A program made the position numbers and the translations under genes. Positions 1 through 5,886 of a stretch of DNA of 34,484 bases are shown in pieces. The notes beneath the pieces are model-generated. The model was given only the letters and a program-made list of their open reading frames with translations. It searched no databases and was not told the origin of the DNA. This DNA is from a virus, in the IMG/VR virus record IMGVR_UViG_3300032282_001229, positions 1 through 34,484 of that record; one strand, given 5' to 3'. Position 1 is the stretch's first letter. Every line of letters begins with the position of its first letter.

Positions 1-123
1 TGGAATTAAGATTGGACAGGATAGTAAAGATGACGAATGAGCAATTACAGGCTTTAGGAATAGATCCTAAATGGCTTGATGGTTTAAATGAAACCTTTGA
101 AAAGTATGAAATTAATACCCCAA
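1..123. repeat. Terminal direct repeat, left copy (circular closure)
   Basis: The first 123 bases recur without a mismatch as the last 123 bases of the window. The repeat begins inside the 3' end of a membrane-protein gene and ends inside the endolysin gene, so it has no gene boundary of its own. This is what an assembler leaves at the join of a circular or circularly permuted genome; a real packaged terminal repeat cannot be excluded from sequence alone. The unique genome length is then 34,361 bp. Confidence 0.95.
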
Positions 124-626
124 AGCGCCAGGCAGCTTTTATTGGTCAATGTGGGCATGAATCTGCCTCATTTAAAGTATTGGAAGAAAACCTCAATTAC
201 AGCGCCAAAGGTCTAGTTGCAACATGGCCCTCTAGATTTCAAAACATTGAATATGCCTCAGAATATGAGCGTAAACCTGAAAGAATTGCCAATAAAGTCT
301 ATGGTGGCAGAGCCGATCTTGGAAATACTGAGGATGGTGATGGCTGGAAGTTTCATGGAAGGGGTTTAATTCAGCTCACAGGGCGCTCAAATTACACAGT
401 ATGTGGGTTAGCATTAGGTAAGCCATTTGCAGAGCATCCTGAGCTTATTTTAGAGCCTGAGAACGCTTGTCTGTCTGCTGGCTGGTTTTGGAACAAAAGA
501 GGCTTAAATGCGTTAGCAGACAATGAAGATTGGACTACCATTACCAAGCGGATCAATGGTGGAACTATTGGTTTACAAGATCGTATTGATCGAACCCATA
601 AAGCTATGGACATACTAGGAGCATAA
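30..626 (+). CDS. GH19 chitinase-like endolysin
   Basis: A 198-residue peptidoglycan-degrading lysozyme of glycoside hydrolase family 19, the last gene of the lysis cassette. The family hallmarks are visible: GQCGHESASFKVLEENLNYS at about residues 39-58, with Glu44 and Glu53 as likely catalytic acid and base, and GWKFHGRGLIQLTGRSNY further on. No signal peptide or membrane segment is present, so the enzyme should wait in the cytoplasm for the upstream holins. ATG at 30 is preferred; a TTG at 12 in frame would add six residues. The start overlaps the end of the preceding membrane-protein gene by 11 bases once the genome is closed, which suggests translational coupling. The 5' end is repeated at 34391-34484. 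Confidence 0.93.
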   Translation: MTNEQLQALGIDPKWLDGLNETFEKYEINTPKRQAAFIGQCGHESASFKVLEENLNYSAKGLVATWPSRFQNIEYASEYERKPERIANKVYGGRADLGNTEDGDGWKFHGRGLIQLTGRSNYTVCGLALGKPFAEHPELILEPENACLSAGWFWNKRGLNALADNEDWTTITKRINGGTIGLQDRIDRTHKAMDILGA

Positions 627-628
627 AA

Positions 629-814
629 ATGCAAGAATCTAAAAAGCAACAAAAGCGTGAAGAATCTCAAGTTATTAAATTGCGTAATGCAGTTTATGAA
701 TTTGGCAAAGAACTTAAAAAACATGAGTCAGAGCCAATGAGTAAGGCGCATCCTGAGAAGTCTAAAGGATCAGATCAAAAAGATGCGCCTCTGCCAAATA
801 TGCGGAAATACTAA
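629..814 (+). CDS. Small charged hypothetical protein
   Basis: A 61-residue, Lys/Glu-rich, probably helical protein starting two bases after the endolysin stop, with AGGAG about 7 bases before its ATG. The N-terminal half looks like a short amphipathic or coiled helix (KKQQKREESQVIKLRN), the C-terminal half is polar and probably disordered. It is the last rightward gene: its stop overlaps the stop of the leftward operon's last gene, so this is the convergence point of the two transcription units. No function is recognised. A tiny spanin is unlikely because there is no signal peptide, lipobox or membrane segment. Confidence 0.7.
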   Translation: MQESKKQQKREESQVIKLRNAVYEFGKELKKHESEPMSKAHPEKSKGSDQKDAPLPNMRKY

Positions 815-1002
815 AGTTTTTTAAATTCCTGATCCATATCTTTAAGGGTAAACATACGGCTTTTAATCCAAGCGTAAGTCCATATCCTTAAAGCTACTGG
901 ATTGTGATTGAATACATCAGGAAAAGTTTCAAAAAACTGTCTTTCGCACTCATCTTCAGGAATAGCCATTTCTCCTGCAAAAGGGATCTGTTCAAAAATC
1001 AT
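811..1002 (-). CDS. Hypothetical protein, end of leftward operon
   Basis: A 63-residue soluble protein with an acidic, aromatic middle (ECERQFFETFPDVF). It is not recognised. The ATG overlaps the stop of the upstream gene as ATGA, a coupling arrangement used throughout this operon, and its stop overlaps that of the rightward gene ending at 814. The tight packing and intact frame are the main support for it being real. Confidence 0.6.
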   Translation of the reverse strand: MIFEQIPFAGEMAIPEDECERQFFETFPDVFNHNPVALRIWTYAWIKSRMFTLKDMDQEFKKL

Positions 1003-1205
1003 TTGAGCCTCACTACTTTAGCTTTACGCAATACAGCTTCATATTGCTGCTTGGCATGATCGTCTAGCTTTCGCAGAGGAAGATTCTGCCAATAGGCCCA
1101 TTTATCTCGATATTCTTGCTGTTCTGATGGAGGAGTCCAGCCGTTAAGTCTCCATCTAACAGTAATATCAGTTCCAGTAGCAGTCCAAATATGATCGTTG
1201 TCCAT
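999..1205 (-). CDS. Hypothetical protein with Trp-rich core
   Basis: A 68-residue protein starting MDNDHIWTATGTDITVRWR. The ATG at 1205 is chosen over an upstream in-frame TTG-type start because GGAGG lies five bases before it. The first half (WTATGTDITVRWRLNGWTPP) looks like short beta strands, and the second half is a charged helix. No family is recognised. It follows the secreted cysteine peptide by eight bases and is coupled to the next gene by ATGA. Confidence 0.65.
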   Translation of the reverse strand: MDNDHIWTATGTDITVRWRLNGWTPPSEQQEYRDKWAYWQNLPLRKLDDHAKQQYEAVLRKAKVVRLK

Positions 1206-1213
1206 AGAACCTC

Positions 1214-1345
1214 CTATCGGCAAATAGTAACCCATTGGCAGCCTCCTCCTCCACAGACATATTGCTGCCAACAATTTGCGTGTTGAGCCATTACAAAACC
1301 AACTACAAAAAATGCTGCTGTTGCTATAAGCGCTTTTTTAAACAT
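1214..1345 (-). CDS. Secreted four-cysteine mini-protein (43 aa)
   Basis: A 43-residue ORF with AAGGAGAATCACT directly before its ATG. Residues 1-20 read as a Sec signal peptide: KK at positions 3-4, a hydrophobic stretch LIATAAFFVVGFVMA, and a likely cleavage after Ala20. The mature 23 residues hold four cysteines (25, 31, 36, 42) in the symmetric pattern C-x5-C-GGGG-C-x5-C, with two tryptophans. This would suit a disulfide-stapled beta hairpin turning on the four glycines. No lipobox is present. It lies in the leftward early operon, between the SSB-tip protein and a 68-residue hypothetical gene. Export to the periplasm is inferred; the role is unknown. Confidence 0.75.
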   Translation of the reverse strand: MFKKALIATAAFFVVGFVMAQHANCWQQYVCGGGGCQWVTICR

Positions 1346-1356
1346 AGTGATTCTCC

Positions 1357-1611
1357 TTAAAATGGAATATCAGATTCAATATTAGATAAATCTACTGCTT
1401 TTGTTGGTGCTGCTCCTTTTTCTTCAGGCTCATTTAAGTAAGCAAGAATAGAACCTTCCTTCATAGCAAAAATAGGCAATGATTCTAGCTTCAACATTAA
1501 CCCATGTTTGGTTTCCATGACAATACCAATAGATTGATAGCGTTTTTTCATAGTGCCATCATCGCCTTTGAACTCTGATACTGCTGCTTTTACAAAATAT
1601 TTAATTGCCAT
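1357..1611 (-). CDS. SSB-like small protein with DIPF C-terminal tip
   Basis: An 84-residue protein. The N-terminal 60 residues alternate hydrophobic and polar (KRYQSIGIVMETKHGLMLKLESLP), as in a small OB-fold. The C-terminus is a low-complexity linker ending SNIESDIPF. An acidic tip closing on Asp-Ile-Pro-Phe is the signature by which bacterial SSB proteins recruit partners such as RecQ, RecO and PriA. The gene overlaps the YqaJ-type exonuclease by 11 bases and sits in the recombination module. A single-strand DNA-binding role is inferred; the OB fold itself is not proven by motif. A GGAG site precedes the ATG. Confidence 0.7.
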   Translation of the reverse strand: MAIKYFVKAAVSEFKGDDGTMKKRYQSIGIVMETKHGLMLKLESLPIFAMKEGSILAYLNEPEEKGAAPTKAVDLSNIESDIPF

Positions 1612-2251
1612 TTCTTTTCTCCATAAGATTTACTTCCACTTCTACTTCACTTAAAAATTGATTGATTTCTGCTTGCATAAACAAAATAAACTCAGAATCT
1701 CTAGGAATACGCACTATCAATAATTGGCTTCTTTCAGGCATCCTAGGATCAAAACTAACAAAATCGCACCATTTAGCGCCTGTAACTGCCATTTGAGCTT
1801 GCATCTGAATAATGTATTTTTCAGGAGGCTTATTGGCTTTTATGTAAGACCAATGCGTAGCAGAGTTTGGACATTTAATTTCAATAAGACCATCGTTTGC
1901 AACCAAGCCATCAGGAGAACAGCCAAAACCAGCGATAGTAGGATGATTGACAAAGGCAATCTGATCCACAAAATTGCCTGTCGCAACCTCATACGCAACC
2001 CTGGCTTGTGGTTCTGTTTGAGTTCCCCATTCCATTGCACCATTGGTATATGATTCCTCTATGGTCTTTGTAACTCGTTGCAAGGCAAGCTCAATCAGAT
2101 AGTTTCCTCGACTAGCTGAAGCACCTGATTTTGTCTTAGCCAATATATCAGCAACTCTAGAAGCTGTAACCTTTCCTAGGCGAAGTTGATGCCATTCAGC
2201 AGTTCCCTGTTGGACTGCTGCAACTCTATCTTCTGTAGTAAAAGTCGTCAT
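1601..2251 (-). CDS. YqaJ-like (lambda-exonuclease family) recombination nuclease
   Basis: A 216-residue nuclease of the YqaJ/lambda Exo branch of the PD-(D/E)XK fold. Seen in order: TAEWHQLRLGKVTASRV (residues 17-33), MEWGTQTEPQARVAYE with Glu80, CSPDGL with Asp114, EIKCP with Glu124 and Lys126, and a Gln-rich helix IIQMQAQMAV. These are the metal-binding and catalytic positions of the family. Such 5'-3' exonucleases produce 3' overhangs for an annealing protein, which is encoded just upstream in the same operon (2562-3101). It is coupled to its upstream neighbour by ATGA and overlaps the SSB-like gene downstream. Confidence 0.92.
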   Translation of the reverse strand: MTTFTTEDRVAAVQQGTAEWHQLRLGKVTASRVADILAKTKSGASASRGNYLIELALQRVTKTIEESYTNGAMEWGTQTEPQARVAYEVATGNFVDQIAFVNHPTIAGFGCSPDGLVANDGLIEIKCPNSATHWSYIKANKPPEKYIIQMQAQMAVTGAKWCDFVSFDPRMPERSQLLIVRIPRDSEFILFMQAEINQFLSEVEVEVNLMEKRNGN

Positions 2252-2516: not shown

Positions 2517-2590
2517 TTCCGAGCCTCCTTTTCTCTAGTTAAAATTGCATCAAACATTGCTTTAAGCTCCCAATTCTGCTTTTTGAACAT
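2513..2590 (-). CDS. Possible 25-residue peptide overlapping the annealing-protein gene
   Basis: A short ORF in another frame that begins inside the 3' end of the annealing-protein gene and ends overlapping the next start as ATGA. The peptide (core NWELKAMFDAILTREKEARK) has a natural-looking amphipathic helix composition. An inner ATG at 2557 has GGAG upstream and would give 14 residues. It could be a real peptide, a coupling device, or a remnant of an older C-terminus of the upstream protein. Support is weak. Confidence 0.3.
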   Translation of the reverse strand: MFKKQNWELKAMFDAILTREKEARK

Positions 2591-3101
2591 CTTTGGCTGC
2601 TGAAATTGTGGCAACTGCTGATTTATCTTTTGCAAGGGCTTTATAGGCTTGAGCATATTTTTCCTTTAGTTCATCAATCGTTTCAGATAAATTGATAATG
2701 TTTACCCAATATTGAGTTAATTCTTTTAGATCAACTGGATCTTCATCAGGCAAATCTTCTCCGCTATAAATGTATAGCGCCAAACCATGTAGTGCTATTG
2801 CTTTGACTAAACAACGCTGCATGGCGGTATTTACAGCCATTGCATCAGGGTTTTGAATAGCTTTGTTTTGATTGTTAATGACAGGCATTTGAGCTGTCAT
2901 AGTTTTGCCAAAAGCGGTTACTGAGCAAAATACCATCAAAGTTTCAGCAAAGTAAACTGGATCACCATAAGTCCAAGTAGCTTGAGGATCTTGTTGGAGG
3001 AGCTGATCTACAGCCCATGACCATGACAGATAGGTAAATTTACCTTTTTTCTCTGTATGTTCGTTTACATTAATTTTTCGTAGTTCTAAAAATTTAGTCA
3101 T
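2562..3101 (-). CDS. DUF1071-type single-strand annealing protein
   Basis: A 179-residue annealing recombinase of the DUF1071 (Sak3-like) family. Seen: GKFTYLSWSWAVDQLL at 20-35, ATWTYGDPVYF, a beta region TAFGKTMTAQMPVINNQNKA, then NPDAMAVNTAMQRCLVKAIA and HGLALYIYSGEDLPDE at 105-120, the block I regard as most diagnostic. These proteins anneal complementary single strands produced by an exonuclease, here the YqaJ-like enzyme two genes downstream. ATG at 3101 is chosen because AAGGA precedes it; an in-frame upstream start at 3149 would overlap the preceding gene. The C-terminal 50 residues are a charged helix. Confidence 0.9.
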   Translation of the reverse strand: MTKFLELRKINVNEHTEKKGKFTYLSWSWAVDQLLQQDPQATWTYGDPVYFAETLMVFCSVTAFGKTMTAQMPVINNQNKAIQNPDAMAVNTAMQRCLVKAIALHGLALYIYSGEDLPDEDPVDLKELTQYWVNIINLSETIDELKEKYAQAYKALAKDKSAVATISAAKDVQKAELGA

Positions 3102-3111
3102 CACTTTTTCC

Positions 3112-3405
3112 TTAGTCGTTGATTTCATTTTCTGCTGCATCCTTGGCAAATCGCTCCATGTAATCCAAGGCCATCATCATTACTTTTCTACCAATTTGTT
3201 CGTAATCTTGAGTATCAATAATGGCTTGAAGTGCATCAGCTCGTTCTTTATCTAGATCTCCCATAGCCTCTGCAACTGCTTGGGTTGTTCTGTAATCGTA
3301 TTGAGCGCCTGGCTTCATTAGCTGCCAAGTGCGCTCCTCAATCTCATCAGAGCGATCATCGTAATCATTAGGCTCGTAGTAGGCATCAGCTCTATTCATT
3401 CCCAT
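3112..3405 (-). CDS. Acidic hypothetical protein (97 aa)
   Basis: An acidic, Tyr- and Asp-rich protein (YYEPNDYDDRSDEIEERTW) followed by a helical domain ending MALDYMERFAKDAAENEIND. AGGAGGG lies seven bases ahead of the ATG. It is not recognised. Its place directly upstream of the annealing protein suggests a helper in replication or recombination, or an early inhibitor of a host enzyme; acidic early phage proteins often mimic DNA, but nothing here proves that. Confidence 0.7.
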   Translation of the reverse strand: MGMNRADAYYEPNDYDDRSDEIEERTWQLMKPGAQYDYRTTQAVAEAMGDLDKERADALQAIIDTQDYEQIGRKVMMMALDYMERFAKDAAENEIND

Positions 3406-4069: not shown

Positions 4070-4099
4070 TTGATGCTTTTCATAATTTCATGCTAATAT
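4070..4099 (+). promoter_or_regulatory. Candidate early rightward promoter
   Basis: TTGATG at 4070-4075, an 18-base spacer ending TGC, and TAATAT at 4094-4099, which together form a sigma70-like promoter with an extended -10 element. It stands 23 bases before the ATG of the YdaS/Cro-like regulator, and GAAAGGA follows as ribosome site. The region 3949-4122 holds no other sure gene. Confidence 0.5.
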
Positions 4100-4106
4100 T
4101 TCTCAA
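4079..4106 (-). promoter_or_regulatory. Candidate early leftward promoter
   Basis: On the minus strand TTGAGA (complement of 4101-4106) is followed after 16 bases by TATGAA (complement of 4079-4084), a plausible sigma70 pair. It lies upstream of the entire leftward operon and overlaps the opposing rightward promoter, so the two may compete or share an operator. Confidence 0.35.
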
Positions 4107-4122
4107 CTTTGAAAGGAAAAGT

Positions 4123-4320
4123 ATGAATCCGATGGACTTACTAAAGATTGAGTTTGGGTCGCTTAAAGACCTGGCTGAAAAGCTCGATTTAAAGCCAAAT
4201 ACTGTGTATTTATGGGGTCAGAGCAACATTCCATTTAAGTATTTAAAGGCTATTGAGGAGCTTACAAACTACAAATTGACTAGAGAAATGCTTAGACCTG
4301 ATCTGTTTAAAAAGGACTAA
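4123..4320 (+). CDS. YdaS/Cro-like helix-turn-helix regulator
   Basis: A 65-residue DNA-binding protein. The helix-turn-helix is visible as GSLKDLAEKLDLKPNTVYLW, and the C-terminus carries LTREMLRPDLF, the ending typical of YdaS/Cro-like phage regulators. ATG at 4123 with GAAAGGA upstream is chosen; the in-frame ATG at 4090 lies upstream of and into the -10 element. It is the first gene of the rightward operon and is likely to bind the overlapping divergent promoters just upstream, repressing itself and the leftward genes. No partner CI-like repressor was found in the genome. Confidence 0.85.
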   Translation: MNPMDLLKIEFGSLKDLAEKLDLKPNTVYLWGQSNIPFKYLKAIEELTNYKLTREMLRPDLFKKD

Positions 4321-4322
4321 AA

Positions 4323-5090
4323 ATGAACTTTTACCCATTTCATATTGGGGATTATTTGAGTCATACCTCGCATTTGACTGATGAGGAGGATTTGGCTTAC
4401 AGGCGCATGATTGACCTTTATTACCAAACTGAAGAACCTTTTACTGATACAGCAAAACTGGCTAGAAAGGTTAGATCCAGCTTTGAAATAGTGGGTAGTT
4501 TGCTGCATGAGTTTTTTGTTTATGAGGATGATGCCTGGCATAACAAGAGAGCTGATGTAGAAATAGCTAAATACAAAGCTATGAAAGATGGGGGTCGCAA
4601 AGGCGCAGCATTAAGGTGGCATAAGGGAGGCGATACCCCCCCTATTACCCCCCCTAATCACTCCCTAATGCAAACCAAGAACCAAGAACCAAGAACCAAG
4701 AACCATATAACTACTACTCCTAAAGTCGTAACCCCTGAAGGGGTGTCAGTAGATTTATGGAATGATTTTTTGGTTTATAGGAAAAGATTGAAAGCTCCAG
4801 TAACAGATCGAGTTCTTGCAAGATTGATAAAAGAAGCTGAATTAGCCAAAATGCCATTAGATCAAGTGCTAGAAACCATCATTTTTAAGGGCTGGAGATC
4901 ATTTGATGCTACATGGATTCAACAACAGGCTCAGAAAGCCTCAGAAATGCCTCTAGGAAGCGATCAACAGATAGAGGAGGCATACAGAGTCGAATGTGGT
5001 GGAGATCCTCGTATGGCTCGTTTTAACAGCTATTTCGAGATGAAGAAATTTATCCTTGATCAGCGTGATAAAAAAAGGAAGGTGGCATGA
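4323..5090 (+). CDS. DUF1376 (YdaU-like) replication protein
   Basis: A 255-residue protein. The N-terminal 95 residues are a clear DUF1376 domain: NFYPFHIGDYLSHTSHLTDE, YRRMIDLYYQTEEPFT, ADVEIAKYK, and the helix end GRKGAALRWHK. A proline- and repeat-rich linker follows (TPPITPPNHS, then NQEPRTKN), and a C-terminal domain VDLWNDFLVYRKRLKAPVT similar to those on phage initiators. Family members sit where lambda O would be and are taken as replication initiators or helicase loaders. The gene lies three bases after the regulator and overlaps the methyltransferase start by four bases. The linker DNA carries direct repeats described separately. Confidence 0.85.
   Translation: MNFYPFHIGDYLSHTSHLTDEEDLAYRRMIDLYYQTEEPFTDTAKLARKVRSSFEIVGSLLHEFFVYEDDAWHNKRADVEIAKYKAMKDGGRKGAALRWHKGGDTPPITPPNHSLMQTKNQEPRTKNHITTTPKVVTPEGVSVDLWNDFLVYRKRLKAPVTDRVLARLIKEAELAKMPLDQVLETIIFKGWRSFDATWIQQQAQKASEMPLGSDQQIEEAYRVECGGDPRMARFNSYFEMKKFILDQRDKKRKVA
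4634..4744 (+). repeat. Direct repeats and hairpin inside the replication gene; possible origin
   Basis: Within the linker of the DUF1376 gene lie three elements. A C7 element TACCCCCCCTA occurs twice, 12 bases apart (C7 at 4636-4642 and 4648-4654). A 7-base unit AACCAAG is repeated four times in perfect tandem with a partial fifth (4673-4705). A hairpin ACCCC-TGAA-GGGGT follows at 4731-4744. In lambda-like phages the origin is an iteron array inside the initiator gene, so this cluster is a candidate origin. It could also be simple slippage in a disordered linker. Confidence 0.45.
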
Positions 5091-5878
5091 ATGAGTTGGC
5101 TCTTTTCGCAGGCGCTGGTGGAGGAATACTTGGGGGACATTTGCTTGGGTGGAGAACAGTCTGCGCTGTCGAATGGGAAGCCTATCCAGCAAGCGTATTG
5201 TGCGCCAGGCAAAATGACGGACTTTTGCCGAGTTTCCCAATTTGGGATGATGTTCAAACCTTTGACGGAAAACCTTGGAGAGGAATTGTTGATGTTGTAT
5301 CAGGAGGATTTCCTTGCCAAGACATCTCAGCAGCAGGAAGGGGGGGGGAATCGAGGCAGAGCGATCAGGAATGTGGAAAGAAATGGCAAGAATCATTAGC
5401 GAAGTTAGACCTAGATACGCTTTTGTGGAAAATTCCCCAATGCTCACTTCTAGAGGACTTGGAACAGTCCTTAGAGATTTGGCCCAAATGGGGTTCGATG
5501 CGGAATGGGGAGTGCTTTCCGCAGCCGATGTTGGAGCGAACCACAAAAGAGAGCGAATTTGGATTTGTGCCGAACAACGAAACTTTTTTTCATACCCCAT
5601 GCACAACAGGGATAGATGGAGGAAGCAACAGTCGAAAAGCCTTAAAGAAAAGAAAAGCAGAATGGCCAACACCATTAAGTTCGGAACACAAGGGCAATCA
5701 AAAAATTCGAGAGAATCGTCAAAATGGATTGACAGCGCTGGTTGGTGGAAGATTGAACCCAATGTGGGTCGAGTGGCTAATGGGGTGGCATTTGGGTTGG
5801 ACAGACTTAAAGCCATTGGAAATGGACAAGTGCCACTTTGTGCAGCAACAGCATGGAATTTGCTCAGAAAAAGATTAG
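5087..5878 (+). CDS. C5-cytosine DNA methyltransferase, unshifted frame
   Basis: The first 85 residues are an unambiguous cytosine-5 methyltransferase start: ALFAGAGGGILGGHLLGW (motif I, S-adenosylmethionine binding), VCAVEWEAYPASVL, and VVSGGFPCQDISAAG (motif IV with the catalytic Cys). At the G9 tract (5340-5348) the expected continuation is found in the -1 frame. The unshifted frame nevertheless stays open for 177 more codons and carries its own recognisable text: WPKWGSMRNGEC, EWPTPLSSEHKGN, and LNPMWVEWLMGWHLGWTDLK, all of which I know from C-terminal parts of other phage cytosine methyltransferases. As read it lacks motifs VI, VIII and X. The ATG overlaps the replication gene by four bases, and the stop abuts the next ATG. 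Confidence 0.8.
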   Translation: MNELALFAGAGGGILGGHLLGWRTVCAVEWEAYPASVLCARQNDGLLPSFPIWDDVQTFDGKPWRGIVDVVSGGFPCQDISAAGRGGESRQSDQECGKKWQESLAKLDLDTLLWKIPQCSLLEDLEQSLEIWPKWGSMRNGECFPQPMLERTTKESEFGFVPNNETFFHTPCTTGIDGGSNSRKALKKRKAEWPTPLSSEHKGNQKIRENRQNGLTALVGGRLNPMWVEWLMGWHLGWTDLKPLEMDKCHFVQQQHGICSEKD

Positions 5879-5886
5879 ATGAATGA
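5314..5886 (+). CDS. C5-cytosine DNA methyltransferase, C-terminal half in the -1 frame
   Basis: This frame continues the methyltransferase after the G9 tract: GGGIEAERSGMWKEMARII, VRPRYAFVENSPMLTSRG (motif VI, with the Glu that protonates cytosine), ADVGANHKRERIWICA (motif VIII), and LDRLKAIGNGQVPLCAATAW (motif X, which closes the S-adenosylmethionine site). Joined at the G run it gives a full-length enzyme of about 266 residues. Possible independent starts (TTG 5314) have no good ribosome site, so the half is probably made by -1 slippage, or the gene is disrupted, phase-variable, or one G was lost in the assembly. It overlaps the next gene by eight bases. Confidence 0.75.
   Translation: MPRHLSSRKGGGIEAERSGMWKEMARIISEVRPRYAFVENSPMLTSRGLGTVLRDLAQMGFDAEWGVLSAADVGANHKRERIWICAEQRNFFSYPMHNRDRWRKQQSKSLKEKKSRMANTIKFGTQGQSKNSRESSKWIDSAGWWKIEPNVGRVANGVAFGLDRLKAIGNGQVPLCAATAWNLLRKRLDE
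5340..5348 (+). other. G9 homopolymer: frameshift or phase-variation site
   Basis: Nine consecutive G residues just after the catalytic PCQ motif. One more G, or a -1 slip on GGG GGG, joins motifs I-IV to motifs VI-X in one frame. The reading then runs ISAAGRGGGIEAERSG, as the family expects. Runs of G of this length are classic slippage sites for polymerase and ribosome. Confidence 0.85.

Follow-up and report, generated by a model that had tools for sequence, protein, structure and literature searches.

That small exported phage proteins can confer superinfection exclusion is well documented. Among the closest described systems, Rtp45 is a superinfection-exclusion lipoprotein of ~6 kDa that carries a C30-C38 disulfide and a hairpin and adds a strand to LptD (PMC12685063), and Spackle of phage T4 is an early periplasmic protein with a disulfide that works in exclusion (PMC7677548). 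A small disulfide-closed hairpin is also the form of thanatin, which binds LptA (PMC11395501). Small exported phage proteins are already known; what is new at the locus described here is a 23-residue mature peptide of frozen sequence, predicted to fold into a hairpin and to be held by two putative disulfides.

The peptide gene and its operon

The window, i.e., the whole stretch of DNA that was analysed, comprises 34,484 bases of an IMG/VR virus record and has a GC content of 39%. It encodes a P22-like portal and a three-TM holin, and its terminase is 65-67% identical to that of its nearest named relatives, the Manatee Spring podovirus-like genomes; a tRNA search of the window found none. A leftward recombination operon, spanning about 4,080 to 811 and diverging from a Cro/YdaS-like regulator, encodes in order a Sak-like protein, a RecE-like exonuclease, an ssb-like protein, the peptide and two small genes (Table 1). 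From this position relative to the regulator we infer that the operon is expressed early; a promoter scan found no more sites than in shuffles. No curated family matched the 84-aa ssb-like protein above threshold, and its putative function is read from its tail and position. Elsewhere in the window, two overlapping frames on the plus strand (5087-5878 and 5314-5886) resemble pieces of one DNA cytosine methyltransferase, which suggests a frameshift or a sequencing error.

The original prediction, made from the sequence of the window, placed a 43-residue ORF with four symmetric cysteines at 1214-1345 and named no strand; we confirmed this ORF and assigned it to the minus strand. The full peptide is MFKKALIATAAFFVVGFVMA followed directly by QHANCWQQYVCGGGGCQWVTICR, with cysteines at residues 25, 31, 36 and 42. 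The strong ribosome site that had been noted for it is an AAGGAG, and it shares bases with the stop codon of the ssb-like gene before it. The window contains the DNA pattern for C-x5-C-GGGG-C-x5-C a single time, and none of 100 shuffles contains it, so chance is not its expected source.

Table 1. Features of the leftward operon and its surroundings in the window
Feature	Position	Strand	Basis or remark
Endolysin gene	12-626		leftward operon converges on it
63-aa protein, last gene of the leftward operon	811..1002	-	
68-aa protein (S1), next downstream of the peptide gene	999..1205	-	
Gene of the exported, predicted hairpin peptide, 43 codons + stop	1214..1345	-	ORF, conserved family, core pN/pS 0.06
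Mature peptide QHANCWQQYVCGGGGCQWVTICR, 23 residues	1217..1285	-	near-invariant core, AF2 strands
Putative signal peptide MFKKALIATAAFFVVGFVMA, residues 1-20	1286..1345	-	cleavage presumed from sequence
Shine-Dalgarno AAGGAG	1353..1358	-	7 nt before ATG
84-aa ssb-like protein, acidic ..SDIPF tail, directly upstream of the peptide	1357..1611	-	position and tail
RecE/YqaJ-like exonuclease	1601..2251	-	phrog_149 1.5e-47, phrog_434 2e-28
Sak-like single-strand annealing protein	2562..3149	-	phrog_659 5.6e-43
Cro/YdaS-like HTH regulator	4090..4320	+	assigned by sequence appearance

Export of the peptide to the periplasm, which the original prediction had drawn from the window's own N-terminus, is supported by signal features across the family: nearly all of 69 distinct proteins begin with a K/R-rich start and a hydrophobic core, followed by an [AV]-x-[AG] motif before Q. 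At the presumed cut, position -3 is A or V (T in one protein) and position -1 is A (66 proteins) or G (3), and the mature part begins with Q in 68 of the 69. In the window, V-M-A precedes the presumed signal cut and H-A-N precedes C25. No lipobox was found in the family proteins listed, the presumed cleavage being before Q. A ribosome site is present at 77 of the 81 family ORFs.

AlphaFold2, given a 33-sequence alignment, placed a helix at residues 2-23 and strands at 25-32 and 35-42, with a mean pLDDT of 91 and a pTM of 0.42, the latter being low, as one expects of a protein with 43 residues. The mature peptide is thereby predicted to form a beta-hairpin, in keeping with the fold proposed from the sequence. 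The strand register of the model puts residue 25 opposite 42 and residue 31 opposite 36, which makes C25-C42 and C31-C36 disulfides geometrically natural; this geometry, together with the periplasmic destination, points to two nested disulfides. Loop changes among the members listed are limited to GPAG and GGAG in place of GGGG, as expected of a beta-turn.

Extent and conservation of the family

A scan of IMG/VR for the C-x5-C-GGGG-C-x5-C pattern returned 91 stretches, 78 of which were family members and 13 chance frames on translation; the cysteine spacing singled out by the original prediction thus led to a true family. It is carried by at least about 95-100 IMG/VR contigs and comprises, in the matches listed, at least 81 distinct ORFs, at least 70 proteins and at least 15 versions of the 19-residue core. 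Relaxed IMG/VR patterns yielded GPAG members in 17 contigs and GGAG members among the matches listed (a lower bound); one of these added members, YVPQCQQKYVCGPAGCRWITVCW (L233), is diverged. Family members share a signal peptide and an A-x-A before Q, then C-x5-C-G-x-x-G-C-x-W-x3-C near the C-terminus, and the window's peptide has all of these.

The four cysteines are invariant in 81 of 81 distinct ORFs, a constancy that, like that of the glycines, comes partly from search selection, because the patterns fix the cysteines and some glycines, and these counts are of sequences and not of independent events. With a pattern that leaves the outer two cysteines free, every member found still keeps them, and W, Q, Q, Y, V and T, which were unfixed in the first IMG/VR pattern, are as constant as the cysteines. 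We looked for frame disruption and cysteine loss and saw neither. In the 19-residue core pN was 0.043 and pS 0.675 (pN/pS 0.06), and in the 18 codons preceding it 0.322 and 0.517, respectively (pN/pS 0.62): the mature part is under strong purifying selection while the signal peptide drifts. An overlapping-frame or DNA-level constraint was ruled out, the synonymous sites of the core being near saturation (pS 0.67); since these sites vary freely, it is the peptide that is constrained rather than its DNA.

The family is without a name in every library searched, and one member is already deposited in UniProt. Searches of PHROGs, Pfam, NCBIfam and PADLOC gave no peptide match above threshold, tblastn against INPHARED phages gave no match at E <= 10, and tblastn against plasmids, using a composite query from several family members, gave weak signal-peptide matches only. 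In GTDB species genomes, an alignment scan returned 128 pattern stretches, none of them confirmed, and a pattern scan returned six matches, all judged to be chance reading frames on translation. No relative was found in the PDB by profile or by fold. The deposited member, A0A6J5MZB2 (UniProt/BFVD), comes from an uncultured Caudovirales phage and is a 43-aa protein listed as uncharacterised, without a name or function; it is 84% identical to the window's peptide over all 43 residues and has the same predicted fold. Its presence there tempers the assertion that the gene is too short for most gene callers, which otherwise holds in part.

An exchangeable slot behind ssb genes

Directly upstream of the peptide, 66 of the 81 loci carry an ssb-type gene from one of four families: the window's 84-aa type (31 loci), a 205-aa type with a DDDVPF tail (phrog_862; 17 loci), an 85-aa type (phrog_18154, 'single strand DNA binding protein'; 14 loci) and canonical SSB (4 loci), the 84-aa and 205-aa types being named ssb-like from tail and position only. 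Representatives of all four families terminate in '..PF stop', and the ssb/peptide junction contains CC-N-TT-Y-TA in 62 of the 66 loci, often with an AAGG ribosome site immediately after it. It is possible that these shared ssb-end nucleotides serve as microhomology for cassette exchange.

In close relatives without the peptide, the next gene often lies 9-16 bases past the same ssb end, and the 68-aa S1 gene stands directly behind ssb; such relatives lack the whole gene cleanly, rather than carrying a broken frame. On a tree of 77 exonucleases, the presence of the peptide needs at least 14 changes, as compared to 24.8 with shuffled labels, and 4 of these at least 14 changes are forced by well-supported branches. 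The peptide is therefore partly inherited, yet gained or lost often. Among the exonuclease relatives the slot is otherwise empty or taken by unrelated exported proteins or lipoproteins. Of these occupants, S3 is a lipoprotein, S6 an exported protein rich in Q and S8 an exported protein of 48 aa with two cysteines; they sometimes adjoin the peptide.

Several features of individual loci were recorded alongside. A 'PF-stop-Shine-Dalgarno' stretch (CCATTTTAAGGAG) is common to the 3' ends of several ssb families (window 1345-1370, L116, L108, L098 and L171). At the equivalent of window positions 1206-1356, L104, L137, L135, L139 and others carry small exported proteins, namely a lipoprotein with ..TECEGAGLRAVVITTKRSINGFTTDIPVEVTC.., a 48-aa QVITCKTPAGAVFVYSGYSCPPG peptide and Q-rich QTYVxNPxGY..PPSP proteins, and these occur alone or beside the hairpin peptide. 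Homology of the peptide with the S6 ('QTYVxNPxGY') and S8 ('QVITCKTPAG') proteins, suspected from the PAG/PQG turns of both, is not claimed: for S6 a profile comparison aligned the signal peptide only, and for S8 the profile alignment was signal-led and gapped, with 69% probability. In L054 (~1057, reverse strand) the peptide core and a membrane protein form one continuous frame; in relatives the membrane protein apparently lies on the opposite strand, several genes off. This fusion is probably an assembly chimera. In L026 the peptide region is present twice, in opposite orientations (1590-1643 and 3137-3190), which looks like an inverted-repeat assembly artefact.

The peptide is spread over many freshwater phages that otherwise differ. 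The window's portal was found in 12 of 29 long peptide-bearing contigs, while G001, G009 and G013 carry the peptide with a different 755-aa portal module, and G014 and G028 carry it with long-tail modules (a tape-measure-like and a tip-J-like protein), both kinds of module being assigned by reading the sequences; the portal of G028, found separately, is HK97-type. The same core thus occurs in P22-like podoviruses and in long-tailed phages, and its being common to unrelated virion modules makes a cognate virion target unlikely and a host-side target likely. As to the hosts, the sole hint is a weak one: in Limnohabitans phage DC33, a homologue of the neighbouring lipoprotein family, with 48% identity, is encoded last in an operon that converges on the lysis gene, which would place the hosts among freshwater Burkholderiales. 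DC33 itself (PQ492659.1; L256) is filed as Inoviridae; with its 39-kb record and endopeptidase lysis gene it looks like a tailed phage, and the taxonomy line may be wrong.

Candidate roles and comparison with known systems

Both faces of the hairpin are constant, the peptide accompanies unrelated virions and it is dispensable in close relatives, which together argue for a conserved host-side envelope partner and an accessory benefit. We propose, with a probability of about 0.45, that the peptide is a secreted stapled hairpin acting in the periplasm on a conserved component of the host envelope, and that the likeliest outcome is exclusion of competing phages. The peptide would be made from the leftward recombination operon, probably early. 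Cleavage behind A-x-A, which reads V-M-A in the window, would take off its 20-residue signal peptide, and oxidation in the periplasm would turn the remaining 23 residues into a two-strand hairpin with a four-residue turn (GGGG, GPAG or GGAG). There it would act on a conserved envelope component, most likely by binding the edge strand of a beta-protein in the outer membrane or periplasm, and would most likely exclude competing phages that share the hosts. Exclusion fits the way exported proteins replace one another in the slot, and it has precedents in Rtp45 and Spackle. Against it, a near-invariant sequence is unusual, as exclusion factors often diversify, and, in contrast to Llp and Rtp45, the peptide lacks a lipid anchor.

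The main rival to exclusion is that the hairpin inhibits a conserved envelope machine (e.g., Lpt or Bam) for other ends, aiding phage production or making the envelope easier to lyse; exclusion would then be no more than a side effect. The invariance of both hairpin faces and the carriage of the peptide by unrelated phages would point to a conserved host target under this reading as well, and thanatin is a precedent for the blocking of LptA by a small hairpin closed with a disulfide (PMC11395501). We nevertheless regard it as doubtful, considering that the peptide is not essential, close relatives being cleanly without the gene, and that thanatin is cationic whereas the peptide is nearly neutral.

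Spackle, an early disulfide-bearing protein of the periplasm and an inhibitor of the gp5 lysozyme (PMC7677548), raises another explanation, namely that the peptide inhibits a phage-encoded cell-wall hydrolase, either that of incoming virions or the phage's own endolysin, on whose gene the leftward operon converges. We consider this improbable. The same core stands beside unrelated virion modules, which makes such action less likely; moreover, of the 29 peptide-bearing contigs only 6 carry the window's putative ejection protein, and the endolysin type near the peptide varies.

Four invariant cysteines would also suit a redox- or metal-active peptide, whose cysteines bind metal or exchange disulfides with the Dsb system. 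The strand-turn-strand register, the pairing of the cysteines and the turn-type substitutions favour a structural staple instead, and the cysteines are hardly better conserved than the tryptophans, tyrosine, glutamines and valine, leaving little probability for this option.

The original prediction had likened the layout to protegrin and tachyplesin, and a membrane-active antimicrobial or lysis helper of that type would share with the peptide a (here predicted) two-disulfide hairpin and a four-residue loop between the inner cysteines, as in tachyplesin. The net charge of the mature peptide is, however, +1 in 78 of the 81 ORFs and +2 in the other 3, with basic clusters absent, which makes a cationic pore-former unlikely; its gene lies in a recombination operon and not beside holin and endolysin. 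Given this charge and the absence of a PDB relative, the functional likeness was not supported; because the peptide is not cationic, the resemblance is limited to layout, and we hold an antimicrobial role to be very unlikely. Least probable of all is a secreted signal between infected cells akin to the arbitrium peptide AimP, whose precursors are of the same length class as this small exported precursor, since no constant partner gene could serve as receptor (the commonest neighbour, at 45 of 81 loci, looks like a Cro-type regulator) and what is conserved is a structured segment of 19-23 residues rather than a short linear peptide.

Returning to action on a conserved envelope component with exclusion as the outcome, a bolder version can be stated, although as a whole it is rather unlikely: a nearly neutral, doubly stapled phage hairpin, independently evolved and reaching the periplasm from within the cell, would block a conserved outer-membrane assembly or LPS-transport machine by strand addition, and its cassette would pass between podoviruses and long-tailed phages via the ssb 'PF-stop-Shine-Dalgarno' junction. 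If a conserved envelope target is bound, the peptide would be a naturally selected, 23-residue, disulfide-stapled periplasmic ligand, and its partner, if found, would mark a site in the envelope of freshwater bacteria that is vulnerable or matters for exclusion. The apparent hotspot behind phage ssb genes, at which exported accessory proteins are swapped, in turn makes the functions of several further unnamed exported phage proteins testable.

Set against the known systems, the peptide resembles Rtp45, Llp and Cor in being a very small phage protein exported to the periplasm, here as judged by signal features. Unlike these lipid-anchored proteins, it has an A-x-A site before Q, two putative disulfides and no lipobox, and it has no PDB match by profile or fold to the solved superinfection-exclusion members. 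Spackle, too, is a phage protein exported to the periplasm, early and with a disulfide, but it is a 75-residue helical bundle with one disulfide and a virion lysozyme as its target, whereas the peptide is a 23-residue predicted hairpin that accompanies unrelated virions. With tachyplesin, protegrin and thanatin the peptide would share a hairpin with cross-strand disulfides; unlike these cationic peptides, it is nearly neutral, has C-x5-C strands, is encoded by phages and is made inside bacteria.
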